Assembly (NCBI GenBank): GCA_014871385.1
Contig: CM026426.1
Span: 80,457,566 to 80,521,565, forward strand
From: Ceratodon purpureus
Taxonomy: Eukaryota > Streptophyta > Bryopsida > Pseudoditrichales > Ditrichaceae
DNA: 64,000 nucleotides
Reading direction: 5' to 3'
Shown: positions 24,172 through 48,634 of the stretch, one piece after another
How the letters are laid out: every line of letters begins with the position of its first letter
Numbering within the stretch: position 1 is the stretch's first letter
Position numbers and translations under genes: made by a program
Notes under the pieces: model-generated
Seen by the model: the letters and a program-made list of their open reading frames with translations, nothing else
What the model was told of the DNA's origin: nothing
Databases searched by the model: none

Positions 24172-25485
24172 TTAAATTGCCCTTCTACCTCTTCCTCTCA
24201 CTAGCCATAAATGATCTATGAGATCATTTCTCAATGCAAAATGCCTCTCTATACTCTCCACATCTCTAGTGGAAGACTGCAAGTCTTGAAATGTGAATGG
24301 TAGTGGAGCACTTTCCATAGGCACTCCCCATGGAACAAATGGCTCTAATTCTAACTCCCTTTCATCTTCAATGATCATGTTGTGCATAATAATGCATGCA
24401 ATCATGATGGTGCTAATGGTGTCCAAATCCCATCGTCTAACAGGATTTTTGATGATCTCCCACCGTGCTTGTAGGACTCCAAAAGCCCTCTCAACATCCT
24501 TACGGGCCCCCTCCTGGCATTTGGCAAAATTCTCCTTCATCTCTCCTATAGGCTCATGTATTGGTTGGACAAAACAAGCCCAAGGAGGGTAGATGCCATC
24601 AGCCAACAAGTAATATCGGGGGTAGACATTGCCATTAACTGTGAAAGTAATGTCATGGCCGGCCCCCCGCAAGAAATTCAAGAGGAATGGAGAGCAATCT
24701 AAAACGTTGATGTCGTTGTTGCCTCTAGGCAATCCAAAGAATGCATGCCAAATCCATAGGCTTTGGTCAGCAATGGCTTCGAGGATAATGCTGCGATTCT
24801 TGTCCTTGTCTTGAAATTGTCCCTGCCAAGCAGCTGGACAATTCTTCCAAACCCAATGCATGCAGTCTATGCTTCCAAACATCCATAGGAAGCCACGAGC
24901 TTCATTGATAGCCACCTGTTTCTCTAAATCCTCTTTAGCACGCTGTCTCAAATACCTACCCTCATAAACACCTCGTATGGCTATCACGAATCTCTTCATA
25001 CATTCCTGAGCAGTGGATTCTCCGAGCCTGCAATACTCATCACAAGCATCTGCTGCCATACCATAGGCCAGCATATGAATAGATGCAGTGCACTTCTGCA
25101 ATGTGGACAATCCCATACGCCCTAAAGCATCCTTCTTGGGTTGAAACCAAGGGTCATATCTCACCACACTATCAACAATGCTAAGGAATAACTCTCTCCG
25201 CATCTTAAACCGTCTACGAAATTTAACCGGCCCATACGTAGGTGAATCAGAAAAATAATCGTTGTACAGAAGGGTGTGGAAATGCTCACGATCACGGAAA
25301 ACAAACTCTCTATCCATAATACTTCCACCAACTTTGGGTGCTGCAGAAGACTCACCCAAAATCTCAGAAGATACAACGTCAAACATTTGCATGAAAAAAT
25401 CATTGTCAAACTCCTCTTCAAGCTCCTCCTCAAACCCCAAATTCAGCTCCAGGCTCCTCTCCATCTCATCTTCCGAGGAATCCAT
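24172..25485 (-). CDS. PIF/Harbinger transposase (DDE, HARBI1-like), intact
   Basis: A single 437-codon frame from ATG at 25485 to TAG at 24172, the usual length for the family. It begins with an acidic tail (residues 1-30). The DDE_Tnp_4 core then has Asp207 in FGSIDCMHW, Asp296 in YYLLADGIYP and Glu332 in DVERAFGVLQARW; the HAFFGLPRGNNDINVLD block between them is also typical. Residues 90-190 hold the helical N-terminal part (RRRFKMRRELFLSIVD). The enzyme cuts and pastes the element at TWA targets. No frameshift or stop was seen, so it may still be functional or recently mobile. Its ORF1 partner in this copy is incomplete. Domesticated HARBI1-type nucleases look similar, but the transposon-like surroundings favour a mobile element. 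Confidence 0.93.
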   Translation of the reverse strand: MDSSEDEMERSLELNLGFEEELEEEFDNDFFMQMFDVVSSEILGESSAAPKVGGSIMDREFVFRDREHFHTLLYNDYFSDSPTYGPVKFRRRFKMRRELFLSIVDSVVRYDPWFQPKKDALGRMGLSTLQKCTASIHMLAYGMAADACDEYCRLGESTAQECMKRFVIAIRGVYEGRYLRQRAKEDLEKQVAINEARGFLWMFGSIDCMHWVWKNCPAAWQGQFQDKDKNRSIILEAIADQSLWIWHAFFGLPRGNNDINVLDCSPFLLNFLRGAGHDITFTVNGNVYPRYYLLADGIYPPWACFVQPIHEPIGEMKENFAKCQEGARKDVERAFGVLQARWEIIKNPVRRWDLDTISTIMIACIIMHNMIIEDERELELEPFVPWGVPMESAPLPFTFQDLQSSTRDVESIERHFALRNDLIDHLWLVRGRGRRAI

Positions 25486-25823
25486 ATTGTGCAGCAGTCT
25501 TGCAAATCACTGCCCTAAACAGGACAATGGAAATACACCTAGAAATCCCCCTACCCTTCTAAACCCAGGCTCTCCCCTCTCACCCACTATGACTCCAAAA
25601 TTTCGAAAACTGAATCTGCAAGGTGGGCGCAGCCCGACTGTGTCCCTGAGTGCTCACAAACCCTGCTGCCGAACCCATCTAGGTCGACAGCCACGGTGGC
25701 CCTCCCTCGCCCACCTGGCAGTGGGCAACCCGCCACATTAGCTGTGAAGCGGTGTACAGGCCGCCCTTGGCGCGGGCGCATTGGGGCCGGGCCTCGCCAT
25801 CTCTCCCCGCAACAGTGGAAGGA

Positions 25824-25869: not shown

Positions 25870-27004
25870 GGGTTGCTCTAAGGTACATGCTGGTGAAAAC
25901 AATTTTCAAATCGGAGCATGGGAAGGCCCCGAAATACCATGAAATACTATCAGACCGTATAAAAGAAACCGGTCCTCGGAGGGGAAAGATGAGCAACTTA
26001 TGTACCTCACAGTGGAACAGAGGAAGTGGTGAGCGGAAAGATGAGTGATGTGTCCCCCTGGCAGTGGCTCAGTTTATGTCGCAAAGGAAATCTACTATCT
26101 CCATCACCTGTATTTCGAGGAGACCGTAGAGGGGTTATACAAAAATGGCATTCGGTATATACTCCTATTTCCCGAGGCCATCTTATATTGTGAATGTGTC
26201 TAATAAGCGATGGTATTTGAAGACTTGCCTGAAAACTGGACAAGGATGTTGGATCAATTCATGAGAATAATGTGTTGAAATTGCGCACGGGGTTTCCTTC
26301 AATACCGCGGGTGTAGTTCCGTCGACGAGTGTATTTCCATGCCTGACCTCTCTATGTGTTTCAATTTCAGTCTTGCTCTGAGACGATAAGTTGAGGTACG
26401 AGACGATCCATTGTAACCACCGTTAATGTTTGTTTAATTGGATTCTATCCTTCCAATACTCATGGTCCATTATTCCTTTTGTTTCCGACGTCTTTGCAGT
26501 TCCAAATTCAGGTGAGTTGCGTTGGTGGGAGCAGACCATGGCTTAACGAATACTAGTTTGACATCTACAGAGCATGTATTGAAGGTGAGTCACATCAAAT
26601 CATCGAGTACGTTATATTAAGTGATTAGTAGTACAGATTTAATCAGTCATTCATGGTCCCGTAAGAACCACCAATTTCAGCTTTAATTTCAGAAACCTGT
26701 ATATGAATGTAATCATTACACAATAAATTTGACGTGACACTTTACTCTTCCTCGGTTATCTTCACTCATTGGAATCATTTAGTGATCTCTAGAGGATCAC
26801 ATTTATTTTCAGGCCGGATTCTTCATAAAGTATGTCGCCCCTAAGCAGCAGATCTACACCGCCCAGAAAATAAAGTAATCTTGATAAACTGTAATGTCTG
26901 CTCCATTGCCTAAACCTGAATTGCAACTCATCTTAGTCTCATAGTCGTACTGGACATTGGCCTCTCTTTCCTTAGTATTACAAAGCCTGTTTTCTCACGT
27001 CGCC
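25870..27004. other. No gene identified; upstream region of the interrupted gene B
   Basis: No coding frame over 80 codons looks real. The stretch ends in the presumed promoter and 5' leader of the gene starting at 27005. No TATA box could be picked with confidence. Confidence 0.45.
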
Positions 27005-27253
27005 ATGGTTTTGGAGTACAGGAAGCCTTGGTACCGGGATTTCTTGATACTTCCCAGCAAAGGTTTTGTTCCAGGGAAAGGTCCGCGGAATGTGTACCCG
27101 AAGTCGGTCTGCAAGGAACGTCTAGGTCCGTGCAACGAGCATGGTGCGTATAAATGGCGCCACGTCTTCGACCAGGCCTACGAGGGGTACATCGCGGAAC
27201 TATTCGAGCGAGTATACCAAAGGAAATTACGGGAGAACAAAACCCTGCCCATG
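27005..27253 (+). pseudogene. 5' part of exon 1 of gene B, interrupted by the MULE
   Basis: From ATG 27005 the frame runs 83 codons (MVLEYRKPWYRDFLILPSKG onward, then AELFERVYQRKLRENKTLPM) and is cut exactly where the 9-bp target duplication meets the transposon. The same frame resumes after the element at 38349 (HFARGVLAEYDGVAVDWAQY). Across the junction the protein lines up with gene A at 4755: QLFSRVL there against ELFERVY here, and FHYARGLVVEALGVEVNWADF against the resumed part. The gene was therefore probably intact before a recent insertion. Function unknown. Confidence 0.78.
27245..27253. repeat. Left 9-bp target site duplication of the MULE
   Basis: CTGCCCATG, identical to 38340-38348. 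It lies directly against the first base of the left terminal inverted repeat. Confidence 0.97.
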
Positions 27254-27570
27254 CCCTGACTATAATCCTCGCCCACGTCTTAATGGCATTCGCTATTTCT
27301 GTTCCCTTCCGCGGCGGTCCCGCGAGACAGGGCCCACGGCGCGAGACCCTTCTTTCGCTCCAGAATTCTTTCCGTCGCTCCCCCCCTCTCGCGAGCCGTG
27401 CCCGGGCTCGGGATGCCACGTCGGACCCCGTCTCGAAACCCTCCCTGCCACGTCCGCATCCTCCACCCTGTCTCGTCTCGGAACCCAGAAAGACGAGACA
27501 CCCCATGCATGGGCTGTCTCGCGAGACAGCCTCATGGCACCATGGCCCATGGGCATGCATGGAGATTTTC
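27254..27570. repeat. Left terminal inverted repeat of the MULE
   Basis: Matches the complement of 38022-38339 by eye along its length, apart from a C run of 7 against 8. It contains several GTCTCG/CGAGAC copies, including a perfect 20-bp palindrome at 27512-27531 with core GCTGTCTCGCGAGACAGC. Confidence 0.95.
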
Positions 27571-27962
27571 CTACCTTTCCGGGGCTTCCCTCTCGTAGGC
27601 CTGAGACGTGGAATAAGTCTCGTCTCGGTTTCCCGCTCGCGATTCCCAGGCGGGAGTTTGTTGTCTCTAAGTGCTCCATCGATTTCAAATTCTAGGGTTA
27701 CCCGCCGTCTCGCCAGGCCCAGACGAGTGGCATCAGTGTCTGTCTACGGCGGACCCGTTTCGGTGCCCTCCCTGTGTCTTGCATGTTCCCGCGATGCATC
27801 GTCCGATACCGCTCGTTTTTTTGGCCGTCTCGATGCCGAACCCGTGAACGCGAGACCGAAGGTGTCTTCAGGAGTGGCATCGGCTTGTACCGCACCTGTT
27901 TGCGGGACAAGCGCAATCTGTTGTGATGCGTGACGCGTGATACCCCGAGAGGTGCGGTCGGG

Positions 27963-30900
27963 ATGGAGACCCTGCAAGAGGACGCCGCGAGACGAATCCT
28001 GAAGGACGATCTTCCGCGAGACAATGGAGCGACCGTGGCTTCCCATTCTGTCGACGTGAAGGTGGAGGTAGACACCTCCTGGATTGGACCGTGGGAGACA
28101 ATCTACATGCAGAAGAACAGTCACATTCTGCAGGGATACCGAGACGCGGTACAGTTCCCACCTCGCGGTCCCTTCACGTTCAAAGACATCAAGTGGGACT
28201 TCCGCCAACCGAATTCGTATCCTGATGTTGTCGAATACTGTAGACGGAACGTCCCGGAGTCCGGGCTTGGAATCGGGCGCTCCGAGGGTGATGTCTCGGA
28301 GAAAAGGTATCATGTTGCTTACATTCCGTGGGAAAGAGTGGAGGACTTCGTCGAAGGCGAAAGCAAACGAAGGTCCGATGTCCAGACAAGATTCTTGAAA
28401 CGACCCAAGGGGAAGCCGCCTGGTCACGAGCCGAGACACAATACTGGCCTTCATACTTTCTGGTTAGTTCATTTCCGAAACCGAATACTTCTGGGTAACG
28501 TTTTGTATGTTCTTCTATTTGTTTATACGTGATGTCCGTGTCTCGATGTTCTTCGATAACGAGACAGCATTCGCGAAACGGGTTCCGAGACAGTCGATAA
28601 CGGCTCGCTAACTTAGTATTGTATTTTCGGCACAGGTACGAGTGCCAGTACGGGCCGAAGGACTTGTCCGACAAGGTCCTCACAATTACTCCCGAGATGG
28701 AGACGAAGAAACCGAAATACAACGTCAAGGGCAAGTTGATTCCCAACGGGCGTGGGAAGGGGAGGCCCAGAATTGGCGCTGCTGCGACTGGAATGAGCAT
28801 CAAGAGAGGATGCGTGTGCAGATTCCAGGTGAAGCAGCTCTACTATCTCCGAGACGTGGTTGAGATTGTATGTTATAACCCGAGACACGAAAATCCTGCA
28901 TCGCTAGTGGTCCACGGCGCCGTCCTACCCGGCGAGCGTGGTCGTTTCGAAAAACAAATTCCGACGGAGCTCCGGAATTGGGTACTGTCGAGCCTCCGGT
29001 CTGGCGTTTCCAGTAACAAGATTCTTTCTACCCACCGTGCCGAGGTGATGCGTCTCGTAGCCGAGGGTGTTCCGCCTGAACGATGTCACTTTCTACGGGA
29101 GTGGGATGTCCGAAACATCGCCAAGGAATTGAGGAAAACAGAGTATCAGAGAGACGACAACGACGCCGAATCCGTGAAGATGTGGGTGGAGGCTAACCCG
29201 GACGATGTTTTTTTTCTACCGTCTCGTTAAGAAAGGCACTGTCTCGGGAACTCTCACGTCTGCGAATTTGCCGTTTGTCATCGGCATCCAAAACGAGTTC
29301 CAGTTCAAGATGATGCTACAGCACGGCCACGAAAGTATTGTCTCGATGGACGCTACGTTCGGAACAAATCACTGGAAGGTGAGGCCCATATATTTCGACT
29401 TTGTCTCGTTCAGTACTCATTTCGTTTTTCGAGACATTCACATCTGTCTCGCTCTTGCAGTATCCCCTGTACACTCTGATGGTGTTCGACAAGTGGCGGA
29501 ATGGAGTCCCTGTTGCTTTCATTATCGCGCAATCCGCAAAAGAGAAAGACATCACTCCCTGGCTCACCGCAATCAAGCAGAAGCTAGTTTCGAAGATGCC
29601 AGAGTGGCTACCGAGTGCATTCATTGTCGATGATGCATTAGCTGAGATTAACGCCATAATGTACGTATGCTGATATCTCCGTCTGCGTACTGTCTCGTGA
29701 TTTGCCGACTCGCAAGCTGTCTCGTGACATACCGTTCCGCACACTGTCTCGTGATTCCCCATCACGCATACTGCACCTCCACTTCTGTACCCCTGATATG
29801 TCTCGTGCGTTTCATAGGTTGGTATGGCCCAAGATTAAAGTATTCCTATGCCTCTGGCATGTGAGGCGGGCCTGGCAAAAGAACGCCTGTGCCAAAATTA
29901 AAGGAATAATCACCAGAGCGTGGGCGCTGCGGGAAATGGGAGCGCTCATGTACATCGAGGAGTCCCCCGATTCGAGGTTGTCTGTCTTGGACTACGTGAA
30001 GGCTAGGTTCGCGAGACTGAAGACATTAGTGTCCGGCGCTGCTGCTTTCTGGGCGTACATTGAAAAGTACTGGATGATAAAGCCCGAAATGTGGGTGACA
30101 GGGAACAGGCACATACCACATGCTGGTCAAGACACGAACGCAGGAATTGAGTCATATCATGGACACACAAAGGCCACTCTGAAGGCCGAGAAGAGTCGGT
30201 TGGATGGAAGGCGTCTCGATTGGCTCATTCACGAGCTCACAAACGACGTCGTAACGAAATACGACTACAACCAATACATGAAGGAGAATGGCTTCATAAC
30301 AAACAAGAAGGCAGAGCAGATCGTTAGAAACTCCATTATATCGGCGAACAAGATCCCGGACTCCTCTGTCTCGCTGCCGTCTCGACCCGGTGACCCCGCC
30401 ATAGTCACGTCGTCCAAGCGAGCCCACATTAGATACGCCGTGTACAATCCCGATACCGAGTGGGCTGTTTGCGAATGTGTATGGGCCCAGAAAGGAAATC
30501 TTTGCAAACATCAGCTGAAGGTTCTTCGTCTAATGAGGCCTGACCTTGCCGACGGGACGATTGTGAAGGTCTGCGGGACACTGTACGGTACCAAGCTAGG
30601 CGGTGTCTCGGCTCTCCTAAATCCCCCGGGACCGGAAATTCCAAGCGAGACTGAAACCGGACCGTCGCAGGATGTCCCCGAAGACTGGAATGCCAACAGC
30701 GAGACACAGGATGTGCCCACGGTCGACCCTCCACCGAGTCAAGAAGACGAGGTGGCAAGAATGAAGCGCATCATAGACCAGACGGGAAGAGAAATCACGG
30801 AACGAGCTGCGAGACACTACGTCATTCAGAAGCACCTGGCGGCGGAATTGGCAGAGATGAATACGAGACACGCTGCCATGGAAACGAGGATTCTAGCCGG

Positions 30901-31036
30901 TCTCCTTCATCCAACGGAGCGAGACGCCCCAAGATTTGAGAGGAATGACCCGAACAAGCCCAACTCGCTGAAACGGAATAGGGATTTCCTCGACGGGGGA
31001 CGCGTCGGACGTCCGCCCAGATCCACGCAGGAGTGA
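27963..31036 (+). CDS. MULE transposase (MURA-like), four exons, one homopolymer frameshift
   Basis: Exons 27963-28462, 28636-29378, 29461-29660 and 29818-31036, all with GT-AG borders. Phases agree if the T run at 29209-29216 had seven T's; eight are present, which breaks the frame within exon 2. The corrected length would be 886 residues. Parts in order: a Cys/His-rich N-terminal region, possibly WRKY/GCM1-like (CVCRFQVKQLYYL, YNPRHEN); the MULE DDE core with Asp in SIVSMDATFGTNH, Asp in SAFIVDDALAE, the block CLWHVRRAWQKN, and a likely Glu in DTNAGIESYHGHTK; a SWIM zinc finger, CECVWAQKGNLCKHQLK; and a Ser/Pro/Asp-rich tail ending in a basic stretch. It would excise and insert the element. 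The extra T may be an assembly error or a real inactivating change. Confidence 0.9.
29665..29772. repeat. 27-bp tandem repeat in transposase intron 3, carrying GTCTCG
   Basis: GTCTCGTGA starts at 29692, 29719 and 29746, exactly 27 bp apart, with a weaker copy before and a fourth hexamer at about 29800. Each unit ends CGCAMRCT or similar. The intron is only 157 bp, so the array makes up most of it. Confidence 0.85.
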
Positions 31037-31102
31037 CCCCACGTCCCTGTCTCGGATTTCTATATTCGATGTGTCTCGGATCGAGACAGCGGGAACTCTA
31101 CC

Positions 31103-31110
31103 TATAAGTA
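31103..31110 (+). promoter_or_regulatory. TATA-like box for the 31223 ORF
   Basis: TATAAGTA lies 113 bp before the ATG at 31223 and just after the transposase gene ends. The spacing suits a plant core promoter with a short leader. Confidence 0.45.
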
Positions 31111-31222
31111 CACCCGCCACGACTCGTACTTTCTATTTATTTCTGCAAGTGTTGAGTGGGATTCATAATCACGGGGTACCAGTTTCCGTAGTTCCCGTTT
31201 GGCGTTCAATTGGGTTCGCAGA

Positions 31223-31609
31223 ATGGAGTCCATGAACGTTAACTTCTTCAATGGGGGGGAGGACACGGTCCCGGGAGTTCAAATGGAGGGGCCTGTCTCG
31301 GGTGCCAGAGGCTGCTGTGATCTCCAGGAATTGGAGGCCGACGCTTTAGAGGTACTGGAGCAATTGTTCTTGGAGGCATCATATGATATAGCGTTATCGT
31401 CTCGGAGAATGAGCTCTGCGAAACGGAATCCAGTGGACGTGTACCGTATACCGAGACAATACCTTGGCGGGCAGTCCCGAACACGAACTGTCTCGAGGCG
31501 AGACGGGGTCGACTACGAGTCCCTTACGTACGTAGGCATGTGTCTCACCCCTTGGAACCCCACTAGGTCAAGGAGGATGTTAGGACCATCAGCATTCGGT
31601 AAACTGTAG
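31223..31609 (+). CDS. Small MULE-borne ORF, 128 codons, unrecognised
   Basis: ATG at 31223 (MESMNVNFFNGGEDTVPG) to TAG at 31607-31609. The first half is acidic and helical (DLQELEADALEVLEQLFLEA); the second half is basic with RMSSAKRNP and SRTRTVSRRDG. It sits between the transposase and the Ulp1 gene with its own TATA-like box. No domain recognised. A small acidic-basic protein could bind DNA or a partner, but this is only a guess. It contains four GTCTCG/CGAGAC copies in coding sequence, like the rest of the element. Confidence 0.5.
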   Translation: MESMNVNFFNGGEDTVPGVQMEGPVSGARGCCDLQELEADALEVLEQLFLEASYDIALSSRRMSSAKRNPVDVYRIPRQYLGGQSRTRTVSRRDGVDYESLTYVGMCLTPWNPTRSRRMLGPSAFGKL

Positions 31610-32064
31610 CTCTAGATTGTGTTGTAGCGAATTTATTGAAGTTCTGTCTCGGATTGTAGCCTAGGAATTATCGATACTCTTTTATGCTCAATGTAGACAA
31701 GTATCGGATGTAAAAGAATCTTCCGTTTTCTAATTATACGTCACACGGTTTCCCGTGCAAAATTTTGTACAAAAAAATTTCTTCTTTCCTCTCCGACCCC
31801 TGGGAGCCAAGCATCCCACATACGAGACACTGAGCTCTCAACTAGTCACAGGGAGTCCACTACAAACGAGAGGCGAGACAGTCACTTCCCTTCCTTGGAC
31901 TGTCTCGGACTATACCATTCATCTATACACTGTCATTGTGTCCTTCAACTATGCACTACATCTCTACTACTGTACGTCTCCCTCCCATCCCCAAAACTGG
32001 TACTATGTACTGAGCAGTCCTGTACAAGTCTCCTGCCTGTCTCGCCCCAAAACAAAAACGCAGT
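31610..32064. other. Convergent spacer between MULE genes
   Basis: No coding frame of note. It separates the plus-strand small ORF from the stop of the minus-strand Ulp1 gene and should hold both 3' ends. GTCTCG/CGAGAC recurs about five times. Confidence 0.5.
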
Positions 32065-35000
32065 CTACAGCCGTCGTCTCGCCGAGCCTGAAGGAGAGTG
32101 CACCATCTTCTCGAATTTCTCACGCTTAGACTTCCTGGACTTGGTGGCGCTTCCGAGCCTCGCCTTTGTGTCTTCCCCCTCCTCAGAACCTGGTGCTCGT
32201 GGTTCACGGATGTGGAACGCATCCACCTTGTACCCGGTCCGAGACATCGCTGGCGAAATACCGAACACTTGGACCCCGCCTTTTACTGTGACGTAGTCCG
32301 GGACAACGATATCCCCCTCCATCAGGTTAGGCAAGTCATTCAGTCCAGTCCCGCAGATCCTCGGTCTTGGTAATCTGTCGTCCGCACGGGCTGTCTCGAT
32401 GTACAGCTGCTCCAAGAACCACAACTGCATTTGCTGCCCAGTCCATTTCAACCACCGCTTCTTCTTCATTTTCTCCGCAGGCTTCGGGAAACGACAACCA
32501 TATCCACGAGTGACCATGTACTGCCAGAACTGGAAACTCATCGCGTATCCGCACTCCCATGACTCCTTCTGGTTCGGAGCCTTGAGCGAGACACATCCGC
32601 GAGACACTACCTTCCACCAGTCCTGCGATCCCGGAACAATTCCCCTGGAGCTCGCCCACGCGATGTGCACCAACGTGACGAAGTTGTCTCGAGCCTCCGT
32701 GTCGTGTATGTGGAGGAGGGATTCAAGGTGATATGTCGTGTCAAGCTCCACAACAAACAGGGTCCAGTGATCCTTATCGCAATAAGGGATCACCAACGTG
32801 TTCTCCCGGCCATTGCAACCTGAGAGCCACCGGATTCCGAAACTCCCCAGCCATTCCCAGTCCCCGTTGCACTCCAGGATGTGCGCATCCAAGACAGTAT
32901 TGACGTTGGATTCTGCCACCACATACTGTCTCGCGACGTGGTCCGGCGATCTCAGAACCAAGTGCCGCAGGAGGAGGTCCACGAATGGCCCAATCATGCA
33001 CGCCTGTGGTCTGAGTACGCACTCCCACTCTTGGACCAGGACAGGGATCTTCACGGCAATCCGGGGGTCGTTACCAAAGTAGATGATGTAATCCCCGTAC
33101 TCCGTCTCGGCCACATGCCCTTGCCTGAAATAGGAGACAGTGATAATGTTAGATCCGAGACAGGGTAGAACCTGGACAGCGCTATAGGAACATGATATCG
33201 GGACACCGCGAAACATTTTCAAGAATAAAAAACATGGACACAACGAGCCTAAACATACCATGAGTAATAAAACATGCCATTCACGAACTTAAGAACTTAC
33301 TTGAAGCAGCCAACGTGGAATGGAATCATCAATACCCCAAGCACTGCCTTCCAATCCATCTGTACTCCCTCCGAGACAAGCTCCGTCTTGAAATCCTTCG
33401 GGGGCTCCAATGTGTTCGGAACAGGCGTGGCAGGGTCCATGAATTTAAAAATCCAATGGCTCCCCGGTTTCAATTTACTCGGCGGTATTGGTGCGCCAAA
33501 GTCGAGGTCCCAAATCTTGAGTCCTTCCTCTCGTGACCCAATTCCAGAGGACTGTCCCTCGTCTGACTCCGGCTCCTTGTCCTCCTCGACCACTGTCTCG
33601 GACGCCGCCACTGCGTCTAGTAAAGACACAATATTGCAACCCCCGTTAATTAATGTCCCTCTGGACACTGTATGATGAGTTGGTGTGCAAGAAAGTAATT
33701 GCGAGAATCCGAAACAGTCCATCTGGGATGCAGAGGGAATGCCATCGCCCAATGGCAGGGAACTGAACCCGTCTCGCAATTCTTGGGTCCATGTTCCGGG
33801 ACACTCACCTCTGGGTTTCACGGCTGCCACTGTCTCCAATGAGGCAGCCTCCTTTCGCGGACTCTCGTACCGGCGAGGCGAATCCACGGAGGCAATGTCA
33901 ACAACCTCATTCATTTCGTTGTGAAATGGGGATGAAGGGCTCGCTGTCTCGGTCCCTTCCGAGTCTTGTGCAGGTTCGTCGACAGGTATCGCGTGACCAT
34001 GGACGTTCAAGTGCCCGTACACCAACCTGTCTCGCGAAACCCCGTCAACAGCCGTCTCGGCAGCGGACCACCGGTCTTGAGCGACACCATTCAAGAAAGT
34101 GCGCACTGACAACGCACTGCGCAAACCAGAGGCCCAGGCCGGCTCTGCAAAGAAGGTCGAAGCCGTTAGCTTCGGAACGCATGAACTATTTCCGAGACAT
34201 TCTTACTACAAAACATCAGAACATGGCCTCTGTGTCGGATATGAACTTACCATCCGCGAGAGGGATCCAACGGAGATCTAGGTCCTCCCGTCGAGTTAAT
34301 GCTTGCCGCAAAATCTTCAAGCACTCTGGGAATACCTCTTCCGAGACGGGCGCCGTCAACTGCCACGCCGTCATGAAGGATTCCGTCTCGGAAGATGCAA
34401 AGTCCTCCAGTGCCCGAGCCTGGACTGAAAGGAGCCACGCCTGCAGGTCATCCGAGACACCGCTGTGGAGGGACATGCATGCTGCTGTAATGGCGTCCGA
34501 CGTCTCCGTCTCGGCGTTTGGATCAGCACCGAACAGTGTACTCCCAGCGGCCTGAACGAGACACCTCGCTGTGTCTAGAGCTCCAGGCGAAGACAACTTC
34601 TCGTGGACACTCTTGTCCAGTGCTCCTTGCAGTGGGTCCGCTGAGCTGTTATACCAGAGCACGAGGAAAATATGAGGGGCCCGTGACGGTTTTTTTTTAA
34701 TTTTAAATTATGTTGAATTGAATAAAGTACCTCAGGAGGAAAAAATAAAAATAAACAAGTACACAATACTGACCTGTACCGAATATTGTGGACGAGGAGG
34801 AAAACGCGAATGATCTTTGCCTCCAGACCTGCTCCGACTGGCAGCGTCCGTCTCGTACCGAGTGCCTTGACCACGTCTCGCGCCTCCGTTTCGTTGTGCT
34901 TCCAGGGCATGGGAGGTAGCCTCTCCGAGACAGCGGGGTTCTTCGCGCATATGTGGTACAGGGGATTCCAACCCCATGACACTTCCTCCAACTCCCCAGC

Positions 35001-36814
35001 CTTGGACTCCTCCCACGCTGCAACCCTGTCCGCGATGAATTTCTCCTTCAGTCTGGCGTTATGAAGGCGCTGGGCATCTACGGCCTCCTCGTGTTTCTTC
35101 CAGTCGTGGACATTGACGTAGTAGTCCATGGAGGCGTTCGCGAGACGATCCATCTCTGTCTCGGACATTTCCCCGGTGTCCAACACTTCAGAAAGATCTG
35201 CCGCTAGACCGCTATCTCTCTCGGAGTATAGAGAATTCTGCAATTCAGAGAGTACGGCAGTCCTCCCCCGTTAGCAACCTTGAGGCACAGATTGAAGTGC
35301 GAGACAAGTATGAAAGATAGACGGAAATGAATTAAAATATCGCAACATATTCACGACAAGTACAAGTTATTATAAAATAATGAAGTTGAGAACTCCAGGG
35401 AGGAGATGTCGTACCTTTCGATTCAACTTCTGGAATCGGAAGTAGGTAAGCGAGATGATTGTCTCGCGCCCCTCCTTCTTCAAGAACTCCCCCAGTCTGG
35501 TCCGAAGAGTTCCCCTGTCCCACGTGTGGAACTCCCTCTCCTACCCAAAAAGCCCATAATCCATTAAGATGGTGAGGCCCGTGTGTCCCAAGCGTGTCTC
35601 GGGCTGGCGAATTGGATCTATTGTAAACAGGGACTCCGCTGCCTCTTGAGCCTCCTCCACAACCTTCTCCTTGTCTCGCATTAAGGCGGACATTGGGCTC
35701 AGGGGAACCTCCATCGGGGCCTCGTCGACCACCATAGCCACCGCTTCAGTATCCTCTGTGTGGACAGTGGGAGTGGAGACGGCCATATCAGAGCCGTCCC
35801 CGGGACGTATCCGAGACGTATCCGAGGCGTACCCGGCTGTCTCGTCCCGGATTGGGGATGGCGGTTTCTCGTCCGATGGTTTCGGTCGCTTCGCTGCCGT
35901 CGTGTTTGTCTCGCTCCTTGCCGCTGGGACCCTCTGAGGGTGGGTTTCCGAGAGTAAAACTCCCTCTCCTCGGGTTCCTCCTCCGGCTTGGAAGCCTTCA
36001 CTTCAATGTCTCGTCCTTTCTTGTCTCGCTGTCGAGGAGTGAGTCCTGCCCGAGGAAGAACGATGAACGTATCAGGTACAGCTCCCGTGGCGTCCTCTTC
36101 GCCTGCAGATGTGTCTCGCCGGGGCGGTGAGAGGATGATAGGGACAACAGCAGGCGTCGGTGCCGTCTCGGGATTGGGGATGAACGGTCTTCGCTCCACC
36201 ACGGGCGAGTCCGAGGCCACAAAGTCACTGTCTGCCTCTGCCTCGGAATCTGAACTGCTCAGCACCATTTCCAAAGTCCTGACAGCCAACCTATCAGGGA
36301 CAGATTTTCTCTCGGCCTTCATGGGTTTCTTCGTCTGCTTCTTCGGCGATCTATCACTCGGACCACGAATCGCAGGGACGCCTTGTTGGAATTTGACCGG
36401 CTCCCCTCGCCGCAACATAGCCTGTGTCTCGTTCACGTAGTCCCTCACCAACTTCTGGGGCGAGACACCCGCTTGCAGCTTGTCAATGGTAACGTTCTTC
36501 TCAAGCAGATTCGGGTACATCTTCTCCGGGATGACGTTACCGTTCGCGTCGACATTTAGGGGGCACCCGTGCCATCTATGAGTATTTAGACGCGCCTTCT
36601 GAGCACACATGGGCTCCCCATTCTTGCCACGGCATTTGTGCTTGCAGCAGAACAATCGACGTCCTAACATCACCGGCGCGCTATGACACTCCAGGAGCAA
36701 ATTCTTCCACTCCTCCCATGTGTAGTGTTCCGTGAACAACTTCTTGTCGCTTTCGTGGACCTCCGTGACGCCGTCGTCCGTGATCTGGAGGTTCCTCCTG
36801 TACTCGGGAGCCAT
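32065..36814 (-). CDS. Ulp1-type (C48) cysteine protease gene of the MULE, multi-exon
   Basis: ATG at 36814. The later exons are clear and fully in phase: 35540-35415, 35237-34774, 34645-34251, 34105-33301 and 33181-32065, with donors such as GATG|GTAAGT and TCAA|GTAAGT. The 5' part (36814-35544) shifts frame near 35940 and meets an in-frame TAG at 35541-35543, which may instead be the end of an intron (TTTTTGGGTAG). The N-terminus has a Cys/His-rich block (FCCKHKCRGKNGEPMC), then a long Ser/Pro/Glu-rich stretch. The last exon is the protease: His in YCDKDHWTLFVVEL, Asp in LHIHDTEARD, Gln and Cys in NQKESWECGYAM with the exact Gln-x5-Cys spacing. Such genes are known from KI-MULEs and VANDALs; their role in transposition is unsettled, perhaps SUMO removal or chromatin release. 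Confidence 0.82.
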
Positions 36815-37635
36815 GTCTCGCTAACTTGAACCTAAAACAAACAGGGGCGGAGGTTAGTAACCTGGATGCGAAGTTTATAAGACCTTCCGAGACACAGACA
36901 CAGCGCCGAGACTGCGAGACAGCTGCGAAGCAAAAACCGTGCACATCAAATTCGGCAGGAACTGTGGACGACAGGAAGGAGCCTCTACGACGGATCTTTG
37001 TCTCGGCGAAACATGAACGACGAATCGGAACAGAAATTAAGATTCTATGCACAAAATTGGTATACTCAAGAACTCCCTCCCAATTCCAACGCGAGACACT
37101 CCTGTAACGGGGGCGACATCGTCGTCCTCATTTGATTTCGACAATAGCAGCGAGGCCACCCAGAACGACCGCAGACAAGATACACCTGAACAGTATTCCA
37201 CGAGACATGTCTATCCTAAACCCTAAACCCCAGAACGTCGTGACGTATGACTACTAAACCCTAAAACTAATCTCTGTGACAAACTCCGGCAACAAAATCG
37301 CTATCGTCTCTCCGGAACACCATAAAAACAAACACATAGAAGATGATGAACGTATACATACCTCGATTGTCTCTGCGAAATCGCCTCTGCACTCCTCCTC
37401 CGACCAAATCGCACAAACTCCTCGATCGCGGCTCCAGCAACAGACTCCGACTCCTCAGTTCTCACAACACTCTCAAACTCTATCACAACACTCTCCGCCC
37501 ATGAAAGCGCCTCTCGCACAACACTCTCCACCTCACAAACACTAAGCGTAACACATCTAACAATGGCGCGAGACAGCGGAGAAGGAAACGGAGAGAAATT
37601 GGCAGAGAAATTAGCAAACTTTGACAACGCGCGCA
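36815..37635. other. MULE spacer with CCCTAAA runs
   Basis: Upstream of the Ulp1 gene. It holds CCTAAACCCTAAACCC at 37215-37230 and a further CCTAAA copy at about 37256, plus about seven GTCTCG/CGAGAC copies. No long coding frame that looks real. Divergent promoters for the Ulp1 gene (minus) and the 37722 ORF (plus) are expected here. Confidence 0.45.
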
Positions 37636-37641
37636 TATAAA
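37636..37641 (+). promoter_or_regulatory. TATA box for the 37722 ORF
   Basis: TATAAA in GCGCATATAAACCC, 86 bp before the ATG at 37722. Confidence 0.5.
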
Positions 37642-37721
37642 CCCTCGCACCTCCTCTCGAGGGAACACTCTCACCACCCCACGAGACAACTCTCGCAACT
37701 CTCCTCAGGCAATGGCATAAA

Positions 37722-37937
37722 ATGAGTCCGTTTTTCCAGGAGGCTGCCAATTTATACAGGGAGCAGGGGGGAGACGCCATCATCACACCTACAAAACCTC
37801 AGAAATCAAAATCGAGGAAAAGGCTGCAAGAGACGGCGCATGATCTCCACCCACAGAACCCCATCATCACCTCAACACCCGAAACAGCTCCGACGAGACA
37901 GACTGAAAGCAGAAGTGACAGGAGAAAGCAGAAGTGA
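37722..37937 (+). CDS. Small basic ORF near the MULE right end, 71 codons
   Basis: ATG at 37722 to TGA at 37935-37937, a short basic protein starting MSPFFQEAANLYREQGG with a nuclear-localisation-like run KPQKSKSRKRLQE and a basic C-terminus (SRSDRRKQK). A short ATG-TAA ORF lies just upstream (37711). The TATA box and its place near the terminal repeat suggest a transcribed unit, possibly a truncated first exon. Not recognised. Confidence 0.4.
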   Translation: MSPFFQEAANLYREQGGDAIITPTKPQKSKSRKRLQETAHDLHPQNPIITSTPETAPTRQTESRSDRRKQK

Positions 37938-38021
37938 CACCCACGAAAATGAGACATCATACCCTAAAACGTGGAAGGTCATTCGACAGGACGTGACGAA
38001 TTCTGTCCGTCTCGGATGGAT

Positions 38022-38339
38022 GAAAATCTCCATGCATGCCCATGGGCCATGGTGCCATGAGGCTGTCTCGCGAGACAGCCCATGCATGGGGTGTCTCGTC
38101 TTTCTGGGTTCCGAGACGAGACAGGGTGGAGGATGCGGACGTGGCAGGGAGGGTTTCGAGACGGGGTCCGACGTGGCATCCCGAGCCCGGGCACGGCTCG
38201 CGAGAGGGGGGGGAGCGACGGAAAGAATTCTGGAGCGAAAGAAGGGTCTCGCGCCGTGGGCCCTGTCTCGCGGGACCGCCGCGGAAGGGAACAGAAATAG
38301 CGAATGCCATTAAGACGTGGGCGAGGATTATAGTCAGGG
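38022..38339. repeat. Right terminal inverted repeat of the MULE
   Basis: 318 bp, complementary to 27254-27570 with a single-base difference in a homopolymer run. It ends ATTATAGTCAGGG directly before the target duplication. Confidence 0.95.
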
Positions 38340-38348
38340 CTGCCCATG
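38340..38348. repeat. Right 9-bp target site duplication of the MULE
   Basis: CTGCCCATG, identical to 27245-27253. Confidence 0.97.
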
Positions 38349-39472
38349 CACTTCGCTCGTGGTGTGCTTGCCGAGTACGATGGCGTCGCCGTTGATTGGG
38401 CGCAATACGCTGTCTCTCTCCACCGCAAAGGGACACATAACTCTGTGACGAAAAAAATGACGAAGTACAGGAATCCGTGCCGTCCTATACCGTGGAAGAA
38501 CCCGAGGCCAATCCCACAAGCGCCTTCCCCAGATCCCTCTTTCGTACTAATTCTATGAATCCACCAGTCCTTAACTGTATTGCCTCTCGTGTGTACTGCT
38601 TCCTTTCAGTTTTAGTCATGCGCCATTGTGGGGTTTGAATTTTGTTTCTGTGCAGTGATTCTAATTAGGAAGATTTAAATGTCCACTCTTCCGGCTGTAT
38701 GATGCAAGGTTGCAATGTATCGCAGGAGTGGCAACGTGAGTTCTCTCCTCTAGAATCACGAAGCCCCGGCATCAATATACCTCCGACAACACCTGCATGG
38801 AATGTTGAAGCGTCGTCAGGGAGAGAATTACAGTCAGATGTCCATAAGAGAGGGAGCTCTGTTTCTCGAGGCAAGCAGGTGGCGGTGTCCACCGATAGTG
38901 GAGGGTCTTCGCCACCTCCGCTTGCAGTGGAAGGTTTGGTTAAGCTGACCAATGCCATTCGTCATATAGCACACGAGCAAAGACAAGAAATGGCGTTCGA
39001 AGCAGGAGAATTTGAAGAGAAAATACGAGTTGCCAAAGAAAAGTTCGACGTCGCAAGCGCAAAATTAGTTTCTCCCCATCGCATACATCGGTCCTGGGCC
39101 GAAATAATCCCAGGAGCAGAAACTTTGCATTGTATAGCACTTGCTCTACGGGAGAGGTCTCAGACGCACCCCTCGAACATCCCAAAGTCAGTATATGATA
39201 TGGGACAGTATGCGCCGTTACCCACGGTCGACACGGTGTGGGAGGACACTCTTCTAGTTGCCCGCACTAATCTGGAGTTCGTGAAGGATAGAGTGGAGAA
39301 ATTGAGGGAATCGATTATGGAGCAAGAGAAGGCTGTAGGCGACGCAGAAGCTACGTTCAATGCGGTCCGGGTGGAGGCAAATAAAAACCTACTTGCACTG
39401 AAGTCCGACACAGAGAAGATGGACGCACTTATTCAGTTCCTGGGGCACCGAGACTTCTTCGGCAAAGCATGA
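38349..39472 (+). pseudogene. 3' part of gene B (rest of exon 1, then coiled-coil exon)
   Basis: The frame cut at 27253 resumes as HFARGVLAEYDGVAVDWAQY and runs to a likely donor, TTC|GTACTA at 38546. The second exon probably starts at 38726 after TGTATCGCAG and ends at a TGA at 39470-39472; its frame is open from 38699. It has a Ser/Pro-rich start (EFSPLESRSPGINIPP), then long coiled-coil-like helices (RQEMAFEAGEFEEKIRVAKE; DRVEKLRESIMEQEKAVGDA) and ends FLGHRDFFGKA. Layout and exon sizes match gene A (4755-3236). Without the MULE and one target copy the gene would be continuous. The two halves may now be transcribed apart or not at all. Confidence 0.72.
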
Positions 39473-42888: not shown

Positions 42889-45800
42889 TCATTCTTCCTC
42901 ATCAATTTCAAAAACGCCGTTTGTGATCGTACCGACTATAACATAGGGCCCTCCCACAAGAGCAGGATGACGAGTTGGCTCCGTTTCCAGAACCGGCGGC
43001 AGCAAACCCTGGAAGTCGTTGTCGCTGCCCACTTCAACTACGTTGGCAACTAGATGTCGATGTTGTATTACTGTGCGCCGACCTTTGACGTCTATACAAC
43101 AAATGATCTTCCACTCTCGCCTCGTGGTGTCATCAACAAAAAAGACCTGCTGAGAATGCAACAGAAACGCAAAAGAGTCCGCATGTACCTTGTGGTCCAT
43201 GTGGTTGAAGTTTGCCACGCTGAAACCGCACTTGTCGCGTTCAATGTTGGAGACGCGTGCATCACGGGAGGCTTCAACGCACTTGCATAGCAACAATGTG
43301 GTACAGTGATTGCGGTAATCCAACTCGAGGATCTCGTCAATGTACTCCACATACTCGGTGGTGCGGTCAATGGGCCTCCCATTGCGAATCCCCCAATTTA
43401 GTTGCTGCGTGTATGCAGTAACTACACAGCAGTGACAAGTCCTCCCTCCACTATACGAGGGCGAAAGCGCATTCCAAACGCCTTGAGTAGCCGATGGGGG
43501 TAGTATATTTATCTTCGAGGCACAAGTACTCTACCACATCTACGTCCACTTGATCACCGGCTGCTTGATCTTGCTCCACCCGTGCCCTCAGCCACTCCGC
43601 AAAACGCGGCAATTCGCACAATGCAGGTGGATACGTGACAGGTCTGGAAGGTCGCTGTCGTCTTGATTGTGCTCGATATGCCTCACGCTCCTCTCTGCGG
43701 CGTGCCTTTGCGATTAAATACTCCTTGTAAACAAGACCAAGCACCGCAGTTAAACGCTAGAAAGGCGGCATAGATGGAAACAACACAGTTGAATACACGT
43801 TTGTTAGATCGGATGTCCACAACAACATCTAATACTCCGTTGTGACGTCAGGAATGCCAACTACATTGACATACTCTAAGTTTGGGAAAATACTTGGCGA
43901 TGTCTTGGGAGATGTTATAAAAGACATTCTACGAGACATGCAAACATTTATACGTTTCACTGAAGCACTCCATGAACACGGTTTTGTACTCCTATTGATT
44001 TCTGGAGGCGTCTTTGATGGGTGGCTGTTAGGTTTAGGGGCTCACTCTTGCCATGGTTCTAGGCATAGAGCTTTGTCGATGACGAAGGCATTTGCATAGC
44101 CACGTACTTCGTCAAACAATCTGCGCTTGGTGTTGTCATTATCACGCAAGATTTTGTCATTCATGGTGGCATCTTCAGTGGTGTTCCAAACGCAATGCGT
44201 TGTTGCCCGATGTCGCCTCAGGTACTCTGTGCAGAACCCAAGGGTGTCCTCTAAACGATACCCTTCTGCGATGCTCCCCTCTGGGTGTGCTTGTGTCCTA
44301 ATGTAGTCTTTCAGCGTCGTCATGTACCTCTCAATTGGATACATCCGCCTACAATGGACCGGCCCACATATGAACAATTGCTCTACAGGATGTACGAGGA
44401 GATGTGTCATCACGTTCAGAAACGTGGGAGGAAACTCCTTCTCGAGCTCGCACAACGCCATTGTCACGTGTCGCACGAGCGCGTTGGTGTTGTCTGCACG
44501 TACCTCTTTCTCCCTAGTGCGCTGAAACATCCTACACATTTTGATGATGGCTATGTGCACCTCTTTGCTTAACAAGTTACGGACAACCACAGGGAGTATC
44601 TACAAGATGGACGACATTGAAACATCACATGTTAAATTGTTAGAGGCAGTAAGGTAAGAACAATAGGAACCTAGCAGTCCTTGGGATGTGCTGCCACCTA
44701 TTGCTATTCATGTTTACAGAAACACCAACCATGTCTACCATAACATTGTAATGTCCTGCTAAACAACGCCGCGTAGGCATACACAAAGACGTTTTGTAGG
44801 ATGTCCTTGACTAAACGTGACAACATCTAGGAGTATGTCATTGGCAAAATTGGTCTACTACTTTGCAGCATGCAAGGCGCCTATAGTTGCGGAAATCAAT
44901 ACCGTACTTGTTGCATGAGGACATGATAGTCGTGAGTCTTCATGTATTGCAGTTTTCCATCCGCCAACCGTTTGTGGATTGCCCCCACGTAGTTTGTTGG
45001 AGTGCGGACACTAGTACTATGTGAACAAATTTGCGCTTCTCCTCGGAGTTCAACATGTATGGGGCTTGTGGCATGTAGTATTTGTCTCCTCGGCGTTGTG
45101 GAGGCTGCAACCACAATTATTTATGGATGTTCAAGTCCTCCACGTCTTGGCAACTTCTAGGGCTATCATTCATTCCAAACAAAGTCTTCAGAATGTTCTC
45201 ACATAAGTTCTTCTTAAGTGCATAATGTCCAGGAGGTGTCAAATCTTCAGATGCTGTTAAGATGCCCGCGCACTTTGTTAGCACCACATCGAGAGTCATT
45301 AGAAAGACTACATGTTGCCCAACAGTGGTGACGGTGAGCACATGTTTAGTGCTTGTCAAAACAAACGTCTTGTGAGACATTCTGATGTCCACGAAGACAT
45401 CTACTGGAAACACGACAGTGTAAACACTGTTTGCAACAATGCTGTTATCCTTAGGAAAACATTCAAGGCAGAGCAGTCATTCTCTACTGACCTGCCAATA
45501 AGGGAGTTCGAAGAACACGCTTAGCTGCTTCACGCCCGTGCTATGCACAAGGTCACTTAGGCCTCCTTTCCTGCCGCTGAGATCTAGATATGATTGCCGC
45601 CACGCAGCATAACTAATGACGTCTCATCCTGCCATGATTGTAGGCGCCGTCCGTGTCTCGCGGTTGCCATTGAACCAAGTGTTCTGCCAATACGGATGGT
45701 GACGTGGAAGATAACGACGTGCACCCCGAAACACAATCTTTGAGCCTTGCGTCGTACGATCTTGACGCAAATCTCCTATCTATGCAGATCTAGCATCTGT

Positions 45801-46876
45801 TTCTGGGCTGCAAGAAGGACATCCCTTATATCCCTTACAACATAAATCTGAGATGAGGCCTTTTGCGAGAAAATTTGAAAAATTCCACATGAGCAAACTT
45901 CGTAGATTGAAGCGTCGAGATCCTACGGGTTGAGTGACATCAAGTGCTAGGACACCTTGCCAAACTTGATGCAACTCTTTCAGCAATGGCCAAATGAACA
46001 TGCCAATGTTTGCTGGAGTTGGTGAGCGCTTCCTTGAGATCAATATGCACAACGAAATGAAGAATTTCTTTGTCACAAACCATGGCTCCAAATTGTATAG
46101 CAAGATAAGCACTGGCCAAGTCGACCAGTTTGTGTTGCTTAACTTGAAAGGAGTGACACCGTTTGTCGCTAAAGTCATACGCATGTTCCGCGTGTCTGCT
46201 CTGAAGTTGTCAAAGACGTTGTCTGTGTTGATTTTTTTCTATGCATGGGTGTCAAGTACAGACCGCATGATGCCGTCTTCGCTGACATGCTTTGTGTGAC
46301 CTGTCAACATGCTGGCAATCTTCAGAGACCGCCACATCTGTAGCAAGCAGGGTATGAGAGGAAAGTGGCGTATCACCTTCGAAGGGATAGAGTCCGTACC
46401 CTCCAATTAGCAGGATTTTGAACACTTTCGACATGTCTGCAAGTCCGCATGTTCATCCTCATATAGTACACAGCCATCAAGGCATGTGTGATGTTGTTGT
46501 ACTGCAACCCTAACTTGCAAATTGTTTTTGCGGCGGCATAATGACTACTTGGCAGCTTCTTGCCCTCTAGAAGTAAGTCCACCGCCAAGTATCGCAACAA
46601 TTCCGTGGCAAAACTGTTGCTCACATCAAACACCACACACATGTTCATGATGACAATGGTGGCAGACACGTTGGGTGGATATGCAATGTCCTCTATCCAG
46701 ATACCGTTGGGTGGATATCCTTCCGGTGGGTCGCCACCAATGACTAACTTTTTCAAGAATGGGTCTCTGCCCACAGACGCATGGTGGTCTTGGATGATAG
46801 AGATTAGCTTTCGCCGACCCCTATGACAGTTGCGGCAAGGACATGGATACGCTGTTATGTTCTCCGTTGTAGCCAA
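42889..46876 (-). pseudogene. CACTA/EnSpm transposase (Tnp2-like), decayed
   Basis: Blocks in the correct family order along the minus strand. At 46876-46400: CPCRNCHRGRRKLI (transposase-associated zinc block) and LPSSHYAAAKTICKLGLQYN. At 46378-46250: KVIRHFPLIPCLLQMWRS then EDGIMRSVLDTHA. At 46000-45790: WPLLKELHQVWQGVLALDV then KGYKGCPSC (Tnp2 core). At 45270-45120: LTPPGHYALKKNLCENILKT. At 44980-44900: KLQYMKTHDYHVLMQQ, with 44590-44060 carrying CELEKEFPPTFLNVMTHLLV, GPVHCRRMYPIERYM and PEGSIAEGYRLEDT (DUF4218). At 43350-42889: NFNHMDHKVHADSF and QQVFFVDDTTRREW (DUF4216). Several splice sites are visible, but frames change between blocks and no clear ATG starts the first one (TTG at 46876). 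A heavily spliced but intact gene is possible; partial decay is more likely. Confidence 0.85.
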
Positions 46877-47278
46877 TCATAACTCTGTTTGTAGAATGAG
46901 GTCACCAAGAGGGATGTGACGCAGTGTCCGTCTCTTAGCATCGTGACGGATTCTAGCCCCGCGTCGACGGACGTCTGCGCTCATGGCACCTCCAGTGCTA
47001 GTAATACACACACAATGTACGGAACAACGTCAAACTCAGTTCCCATTACCGAGCACAAGCACAGGGAAAGAGAAAGCAACAATGAGATCATGGTAAGCAG
47101 TATCATGTTGTTTGACAAGACGTCTTTGACCATGTCCGTGCGGAAACAGAGACATTTTCAGAAGCATCTCAATGCTGATTTACTCACACTTTTTATCTGC
47201 GATAACATGTTCATAAACGAAAAAAACAATTAGCACAAAAAGCTGTAAAGCCCAAATGGACAGTGGGTGTAGCGGATT

Positions 47279-47960
47279 GAAGGGAAGGGGGGGGAAGAAT
47301 GAAATTAAAATCGAGATAAGAAGGGAGGGAAAGGCGGGGGGGGGGAGGGGGGGGGGGGGGGGGGGAGGGGGGTGTTTGCTGAAAGGGAATGACAATGGGA
47401 GGAATAAAAAAGTGGCAAAGAGAACAGTGAGGTCGAGCAATTGATATTGGAGGGTGGAGATAAGAAGGAGAGAACCGGACATTGAGGGTGAGAGAGAGGA
47501 ATGGAAGTAAGAGGGGGGAAGGAAAAAGAAAAAGAAAAAGAAAAAACAAAAGAGGAACAGTCAGGTCGAGCAATGAACAATAGAGAAGTCGGATAAGAAG
47601 GAAGGAGTGAGAGAATGAGGGAAGGAGAGGGGAATGAGAGTTAGAGGTAATGGGAAAAAAAATGATCAAATTGGATAGTAGAGAGGGGGGATAAGCAAGA
47701 AAGAAGGGGAGGATGATCAAAGGAAAAAGGAATCATGGGAGTGAATGAGGAAAGAAGAAACAAAAAAAGGAAAAAAAAGGGGGAGAAGGTTGAAATGGAT
47801 ACTGGAGAGGGGAGATTAGAATGAGAGAAGGGGATCAGAATGAGGGAGGGGGAGGAGAGTAAGAGTGAGAGAAAAATAAATAAATAAAAATTGAAGTCAG
47901 GTCGAGATGGATAGCGCTGAGGGGAATGAGAGTGAGCAGAAGGGAAATTAAAAATTTACA
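47279..47960. repeat. Polypurine tract with a 37-base G run
   Basis: About 680 bp in which the plus strand is almost purely A and G. It includes an uninterrupted purine run with G at 47336-47372 broken only by A at 47346 and 47366. Open frames across it (Pro-rich on the minus strand) arise because polypurine DNA lacks stop codons. It may form triplex or G-quadruplex structures. Confidence 0.9.
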
Positions 47961-48292
47961 AAAAGTGCGAACTCATCATGGTAGGCACCGTCATCGTGTC
48001 TGAAGTCACATCTTTGGCCATATCCTAGCAAACGCACAAACGACTAGAAAGGTATGTCGTTGGACACCGCTCATAGACTATGTATCCGAGATCGTTTTAA
48101 TTTGTTCATATCAATTATAGAAGTTAATATATCGTAGGCTTAAAATAGATGCCTAGTACAAAAACCTGGACCACAGTTTCAACTTGCCAACATGGTCGTT
48201 CACCTCATTGACACAATGCAATGGGCCATGTGGATGCATGAAGAAAATCTGCTTATACAACAAAATGTCCTCTACTTAGGAAACCTATATCT

Positions 48293-48634
48293 TCATGATA
48301 CATTATGTCCCTCACTCATGGCAATACAAACTTGCTCATAGAGCCAACAGTCATAGTTGTCCTCCCAATTATCAAAAGGATAACCACCATCATAGAACCA
48401 AGACAAGCTGTATATATTCTTGTTGTACACATCGTCAATAGTCTCAGGCATGAAATCCTTGGTATTGAATAAACCGCGCTTGTAGAAATACATGTGTTCA
48501 CTGTGTAGAAATACTAGCTTCTCAAGGTACGGGGCATATTGGACATCGTACTCTTCAAATGGATAGTGTTCGTACGGGGCGGCGCACTCTCCAACAGACT
48601 CTGCATCGGAGAAGGCCTCCACATGCAACGCCAT
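48293..48634 (-). CDS. Small ORF in the CACTA element, 113 codons
   Basis: ATG at 48634 (MALHVEAFSDAESVGECA) to TGA. It is acidic and rich in Tyr, Trp and Phe: PFEEYDVQYAPYLEKLVF, then SWFYDGGYPFDNWEDNYD. The composition is unlike chance DNA. It lies upstream of the transposase gene on the same strand, where CACTA elements often place a second gene, but it does not resemble TnpA that I can see. It may be an upstream transposase exon. Confidence 0.45.
   Translation of the reverse strand: MALHVEAFSDAESVGECAAPYEHYPFEEYDVQYAPYLEKLVFLHSEHMYFYKRGLFNTKDFMPETIDDVYNKNIYSLSWFYDGGYPFDNWEDNYDCWLYEQVCIAMSEGHNVS

Follow-up and report, generated by a model that had tools for sequence, protein, structure and literature searches.

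The closest described systems to the one reported here are the VANDAL transposons of Arabidopsis, in which an element-encoded VANC protein binds a short motif and strips methylation across the whole element. VANC21 recognises YAGTATTAY in the noncoding parts of VANDAL21, where the sites form arrays of one orientation which expand by tandem repeats, and VANC6 targets carry motifs other than those of VANC21 (PMC5735166; PMC10398659). We have analysed a stretch of 64,000 nucleotides (hereafter the window) of contig CM026426.1 from the moss Ceratodon purpureus, which contains at 27254–38339 a complete Mutator-like element (MULE) of 11,086 bp belonging to what we call family A. Saturation of this element with the hexamer GTCTCG/CGAGAC is confirmed, and we hold it to be an even call that the hexamer is a putative binding site of an element-encoded protein, kept dense by selection along the 11 kb. 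As for VANDAL21/VANC21 and VANDAL6/VANC6, a dense short word is private to each moss MULE family. However, the VANC21 sites are noncoding, in one orientation and tandem-grown, whereas the moss sites are also coding, in both orientations, evenly spaced and, between relatives, mostly different by substitution. A Pfam match to DUF1985/DUF287 (VANC protein) was not found in the moss pieces scanned, within the sensitivity of a single-sequence scan. Binding and demethylation have been reported for VANC and would be expected of a moss reader protein by analogy.

Other known systems resemble the moss element in part. The CACTA (Spm/TnpA) and Ac elements carry terminal or subterminal repeats near their ends which are bound by transposase, and TnpA is linked to demethylation. 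Many copies of a short word are common to these elements and the moss MULE, with binding by an element protein known there and proposed here, but the Spm and Ac sites are confined to the ends, whereas the terminal inverted repeats (TIRs) of the moss element are densest and yet its internal coding sequence (CDS) is also well supplied. Bacterial DNA uptake sequences are short words present in both orientations and in coding regions too; they are genome-wide and tied to DNA uptake, whereas the moss words go with particular transposon families. In fungi, DNA transposons that encode TET/JBP dioxygenases are suspected of removing methylation marks (PMC12730594); these rely on an enzyme and not on a family-private DNA word, and no such enzyme was seen in the moss element. 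No comparable moss system was found in the open-access literature, judged mostly by titles and the beginnings of abstracts, and the main text of PMC6446971 makes no mention of moss, bryophyte or ULP.

A first-pass annotation of the window had placed about 115 copies of the hexamer on the two strands of the MULE, with about five expected by chance. The exact count is 115 (64 GTCTCG and 51 CGAGAC), approximately one per 100 bp across 11 kb, and the expectation lies between 6.0 and 13.2 depending on the method: 6.2 and 6.0 when the motif sites are masked, a mean of 10.0 (maximum 18 among 100) in dinucleotide shuffles of the MULE, and 13.2 under a second-order Markov model with the motif itself included. 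Chance and base composition are therefore rejected as the cause by the shuffles and the Markov expectation. In the remaining 52.9 kb of the window we count 15 sites, not the half a dozen given earlier, and since 14.4 are expected from shuffles this is the chance level. In a ranking of all hexamers by inside/outside contrast, proposed in advance, GTCTCG is first and the next ten are its overlapping neighbours, so that no unrelated hexamer is equally enriched. The fuller consensus is approximately cYGTCTCGs, the preceding base being T in 78 sites (TGTCTCG) and C in 30. Near-miss sites number only 130 against 103 expected; a cloud of degenerate sites is therefore rejected, and the word is sharp.

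The sites occupy every part of the element, as had been claimed, with densities per kb of 25.2 in the TIRs, 12.9 in introns, 12.9 in the small open reading frame (ORF), 10.7 in spacers and 8.4 in CDS, which holds 58 of the 115; both orientations are represented. The 63 sites in CDS and the small ORF are spread over all six combinations of frame and orientation (13, 10, 16, 13, 6 and 5). When synonymous codons were shuffled with the proteins held fixed, the coding pieces gave a mean of 12.1 sites and a maximum of 23 in 1000 shuffles, against 61 observed, so that codon use and protein composition are rejected as the cause. Tandem or local repeats are likewise rejected: direct repeats at 26–40 kb comprise two short families only, so the motif is not a tandem array, and coding sites which are not shared between copies mostly differ without gaps (see below). 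Spacing of the 99 internal sites is even, with a coefficient of variation of the gaps of 0.77, and just 21 of 5000 uniform random sets are as even; the biggest gap is 368 bp, an equally small maximum occurring in 144 of 5000 random sets.

The assembly measures 362.5 Mb in 151 contigs, and the window lies on a contig of 110.5 Mb (C6, 30% of the assembly), which we take to be the V sex chromosome. Of 57 candidate matches to the TIR, 40 were scored, and 12 of these, the left TIR of the window element included, are identical over 317 bp, which indicates that family A moved recently. Contig C6 holds 16 of the 40 listed matches, as against its 30% of the assembly, a figure that bears on the question of sex-chromosome specificity. 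Ten other full copies were fetched and the motif is retained in all, with 99–111 sites each; the count is non-overlapping, and by it the window element has 112. Duplications of 9–10 bp flank nine of the ten (one read by eye), and none was seen in the copy L015/L016.

Conservation of the sites was assessed in 12 comparisons of mutually related copies aligned to the window element, with 5000 simulations each, the control for each site being other one-CpG hexamers within 250 bp. The number of kept sites is above expectation in all 12 comparisons. Among the two oldest copies, L049 (81% identical) keeps 26 of 47 sites against 11.6 expected, a total reached in none of the 5000 simulations, and L051 (85% identical) keeps 19 of 39 against 12.8 (128 simulations as high). 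The conservation signal is mostly noncoding: 15 of 27 noncoding sites are kept in L049 (5.9 expected) and 11 of 18 in L051 (3.1 expected), a retention 2.5–3.5 times that of matched hexamers. L044 (96% identical) keeps all of its 41 sites against 31.6 expected (one simulation), and the whole copies L019/L020, L021/L022 and L023/L024 keep 102, 96 and 102 of 115 against 92.8, 84.7 and 91.8 (72, 42 and 39 simulations). L047 keeps 25 of 29 (20.1 expected; 149 simulations) and L042 37 of 41 (32.8; 321 simulations). The excess is weaker in L045 (39 of 41 against 36.2; 580 simulations), L046 (21 of 24 against 18.1; 610), L048 (19 of 21 against 17.5; 1519) and the near-identical L009/L010 (114 of 115 against 111.5; 644).

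Position by position, bases 1–4 of the motif diverge by 0–10% in L049 and L051, compared with 7–35% for the flanks and 28% for the cytosine of the CpG. The motif is thus conserved as a functional site would be, its bases changing less than the flanks and being kept above matched hexamers. Approximately half of the lost sites now read GTCTTG or GTCTCA (11 of 21 in L049 and 11 of 20 in L051). In the old copies transitions are seen at approximately 37% of the CpGs outside the motif, the mark expected of methylation. The loss is strand-asymmetric at the fifth base, with GTCTTG 9 and 8 times in the two copies against GTCTCA 2 and 3 times, whereas C and G of non-motif CpGs are lost about equally; GTCTTG is perhaps a partly tolerated variant, and the two copies may share events. 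In the same copy comparisons the ratio of nonsynonymous to synonymous differences (pN/pS) is 0.23–0.44 for the transposase, which indicates that much of the divergence accumulated while the lineages were functional, and 0.47–0.80 for the small gene.

Within the transposase coding sequence the sites turn over. A more distant locus, L059, whose transposase is 62% identical in amino acids at its best-matching exon and 53% identical across 694 aligned codons, holds 49 GTCTCG sites within 9 kb, where shuffles give 4.9, and the 7-mers that rank highest in it are extended forms of GTCTCG. The 16 transposase sites that could be aligned with L059 comprise two that are shared, 13 that differ gaplessly and one at a gap; coding sites therefore turn over by base substitution while the density is maintained. 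In L049 and L051 the shared transposase sites are 7 of 15 and 5 of 16, and all others are gapless. Amino acid identity at motif codons is below the overall identity in all six comparisons (0.27 against 0.45 in L060, 0.24 against 0.44 in L062, 0.35 against 0.40 in L063, 0.46 against 0.53 in L059, 0.75 against 0.80 in L049 and 0.74 against 0.83 in L051), which is consistent with the sites settling at places where the protein can accommodate them.

Related MULE families of this genome carry different words. A transposase search gave at least 153 matches (82 scored of 1526 candidates), and outside family A we read four loci, namely L060, L061 and L062 of family B and L063 of family C. In family B, at about 50% identity, GTGTCAC occurs 13 times in L060, 9 times in L061 (of which 5 kb could be read, the remainder being N) and 30 times in L062, against 0.75–1.4 expected from shuffles. 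In family C, at 43% identity, TGTCCTA occurs 16 times against 0.8 by shuffles, with the fuller consensus CTGTCCTAA. The family's own word is the top 7-mer in each B and C locus once one- and two-letter words are excluded (before this exclusion, A and AT runs outrank it in several loci), and the words of the other families are within the shuffle range at each locus. The words also enter ORFs above the synonymous null (7 against 1.0 in L062, 6 against 0.7 in L060 and 6 against 0.3 in L063). A strict TGTC core common to the three words was considered and is weakened by L059, where T before GTCTCG is not needed; at most GTC is shared. The CpG in the motif, pointed out earlier, is not needed for the idea of a motif–protein pair, because the words of families B and C have none. 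No TIRs could be located for families B and C within the 9-kb stretches examined.

Pair patterns of the words, counted genome-wide with backward-read controls, number 194 against 68 for A, 305 against 79 for B and 25 against 2 for C. Among the matches listed (for A- and B-pairs, the first 100 places each), A-pairs adjoin 11 of 12 A transposases and none of 24 B, B-pairs adjoin 10 of 16 B transposases and none of 5 A, and C-pairs adjoin all three C transposases and none of 61 A and B. Some pairs represent chance, and the transposase list used here is incomplete. Three CTGTCTCG pairs outside known family A copies (C1:22058835, C6:22779030 and C6:32956227) share a similar 43-bp sequence, and three others (C6:61451683, C6:69906129 and C6:78333228) agree with these in length only; such pairs perhaps belong to another repeat using the same word. 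The separate words in related families suggest self-marking, each family being recognised by a protein that it encodes.

The borders of the window element are exact. TIRs of about 317 bp, with eight motif sites each, lie at 27254–27570 (plus strand) and 38022–38339 (minus strand), and a 9-bp target-site duplication, CTGCCCATG, is read in the sequence at 27245–27253 and 38340–38348 (plus strand). Long TIRs and a duplication within the 9–11 bp usual for MULEs are joined by a match of the transposase to PF10551 (E 0.00016), though below the Pfam cut-off (22.4 against 27.6 bits); nine of 12 database relatives carry PF10551. By eye, the element is inserted in an ORF (26945–27253) which apparently resumes at 38340–38470, and a protein similar to the product of this ORF is encoded at 4201–4896 on the minus strand. 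A search of a plasmid collection gave no match.

The gene models are our own, drawn from frames and splice borders. The transposase is predicted on the plus strand in four exons, namely exon 1 at 27963–28462 (from its frame and GT..AG borders), exon 2 at 28636–29378 with a Cys/His domain, exon 3 at 29461–29660 with the MULE catalytic domain and exon 4 at 29818–31036 with a SWIM-like region, the last two by weak Pfam matches. It is followed at 31223–31609 (plus strand) by a small, fast-evolving gene of 128 amino acids. A convergent Ulp1-like gene of about six predicted exons, with a Cys-rich N-terminus, lies at 32065–36814 on the minus strand; its name is used cautiously, resting on a weak match in the PDB to an Ulp1-like SUMO protease (E 0.028).

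Candidate readers of the motif named in the first-pass annotation were the Cys-rich N-termini of the transposase and of the Ulp1-like gene, and two small ORFs. The transposase Cys/His domain, which we would liken to WRKY-GCM1 zinc fingers although neither Pfam nor the fold search (one search, nothing at E ≤ 0.001) found this likeness, is the sole candidate present in each of the three families. Matches to the Cys-rich N-terminus of the Ulp1-like gene (33) and to the 128-amino-acid gene, one of the two small ORFs (30), came from family A copies and their decayed relatives only, and therefore neither could be a common reader of the three words, unless diverged beyond the search. On this distribution the transposase ranks first among the candidates, followed by the Ulp1-like protein. 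For the Ulp1-like gene no Pfam match was found in the pieces scanned and no homologue at E ≤ 0.001 among 7988 candidates scored from a large database, and its exon model is unusable, with a mean predicted local distance difference test score (pLDDT) of 33.5. Distant Ulp1-like relatives lie near many B elements: of 72 weak hits (the one in L059 itself and stronger hits left out), 30 fall where the B-pair listing applies, and 16 of those have a B-pair within 12 kb, as against 1% of random places; only 7 of the 72 adjoin a listed B transposase.

We propose that selection retains about one site per 100 bp, genes included, so that a protein would coat the element wherever it is inserted. Related MULE families would be built alike, each around a word of its own (GTGTCAC or the family C consensus), and each protein would serve its own family only. 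The reader may be the transposase, given its Cys/His domain in three families and the density of the TIRs, where transposase must bind; the convergent Ulp1-like protein is our second choice. The benefit may be freedom from silencing along the whole element, by analogy with VANC in VANDAL, probably combined with recruitment of the transposase to its own copies. A broader and more tentative reading, which we hold at somewhat less than even confidence, is that a clade of moss MULEs has a private addressing code: each family would carry its own GTC-containing word throughout, exons too, by which its own transposase or a partner would lift silencing from that family alone, a VANC-like system arisen independently, built by point substitution and with at least three codes in the genome. 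Of the independent motif–protein pair suggested earlier, the predicted difference of words between related families is borne out, while the removal of silencing and the identity of the reader are what we infer.

Several observations weigh against this proposal. The 12 comparisons are not independent, the copies being mutually related, and in most of them more than 5 of 5000 simulations are at or above the observed total, up to 1519 in L048. Retention within CDS alone is weak in several comparisons (8 of 21 against 6.9 in L051, 19 of 23 against 18.8 in L042 and 11 of 14 against 10.9 in L046). The words of families B and C come from four loci, 27 of the 100 A-pairs listed fall away from any known A copy, and only 15 of 100 listed B-pairs are near a listed B transposase. 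The Cys/His domain is not recognised by Pfam, and its structure model is poor, with a mean pLDDT of 66 and parts of the domain below 50. Both large genes of the window copy are broken, the transposase by a T run near 29207 in exon 2 and the Ulp1-like gene in its own frame. In other copies the site of the transposase break is spanned by one frame (343 amino acids in most listed), and the N-terminal frame of the Ulp1-like gene is 488 amino acids in nine other copies against 373 in the window copy, which indicates that the functional unit is the family and not the window copy.

Among alternative explanations, the sites may serve transposition only, by concentrating transposase on its own element or by marking self-DNA against self-insertion. 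The greater density of TIRs than of CDS favours this, as do the Cys/His domain common to all families and locus L062, which is saturated with its word and yet, in 9 kb, has no ORF of 170 or more amino acids besides the transposase and opposite-strand overlaps. However, dense and evenly spaced sites continue inwards as far as the middle of the element, which binding at the ends alone would not require, the known sites of this kind being terminal or subterminal; we regard this explanation as unlikely, though with real weight. That a host transcription factor such as an auxin response factor reads the sites, the element borrowing host regulation, we consider improbable. The auxin response element TGTCTC is contained in TGTCTCG, the form of 78 of the 115 sites, but GTCTCG in L059 is preceded by T in 15 sites, G in 14, C in 13 and A in 7, so TGTC is not needed and the auxin response element is opposed as the sole cause; moreover the last G, outside TGTCTC, is retained, families B and C have other words, and a promoter role does not require sites throughout exons.

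It is very improbable that the host profits, the sites being targets of a host system that silences each family: a private word per family and the CpG transitions in old copies would fit, but the element should then shed its sites, which are instead conserved above matched controls. A little more remote still is a signal acting in transcripts, for although transcribed regions carry sites too, these stand in both orientations and are found in exons, introns, TIRs and spacers alike. A functionless copying process spreading the word is the most doubtful of all, for we found no direct support beyond the enrichment of the word at many places, whereas 13 of 16 coding sites compared with L059 differ gaplessly, tandem arrays are absent and the motif bases are more conserved than their flanks.

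The window contains other transposons. A CACTA-type element at 42892–52000 has Transposase_21 at 45783–46238 and DUF4218 at 44045–44599, and carries 19 GGATGTY at 49.2–52.0 kb on both strands (13 and 6), probably its own subterminal transposase-binding repeats. A PIF/Harbinger-type transposon gene lies at 24175–25506 (Plant_tran, E 8.4e-83), and a cluster of GTTAACA/TGTTAAC at 61122–61474.

In the literature compared, recognition of a transposon along its full length, and the change of this recognition between families, have been described from VANDAL of Arabidopsis alone. Ceratodon purpureus offers three related families with three words in one genome, with both young near-identical and older diverged copies, so that the co-evolution of word and reader would be testable by comparing or swapping domains. 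The moss MULEs would also present an apparent DNA-binding site which seems to be selected within protein-coding exons, against the constraints of the protein itself.

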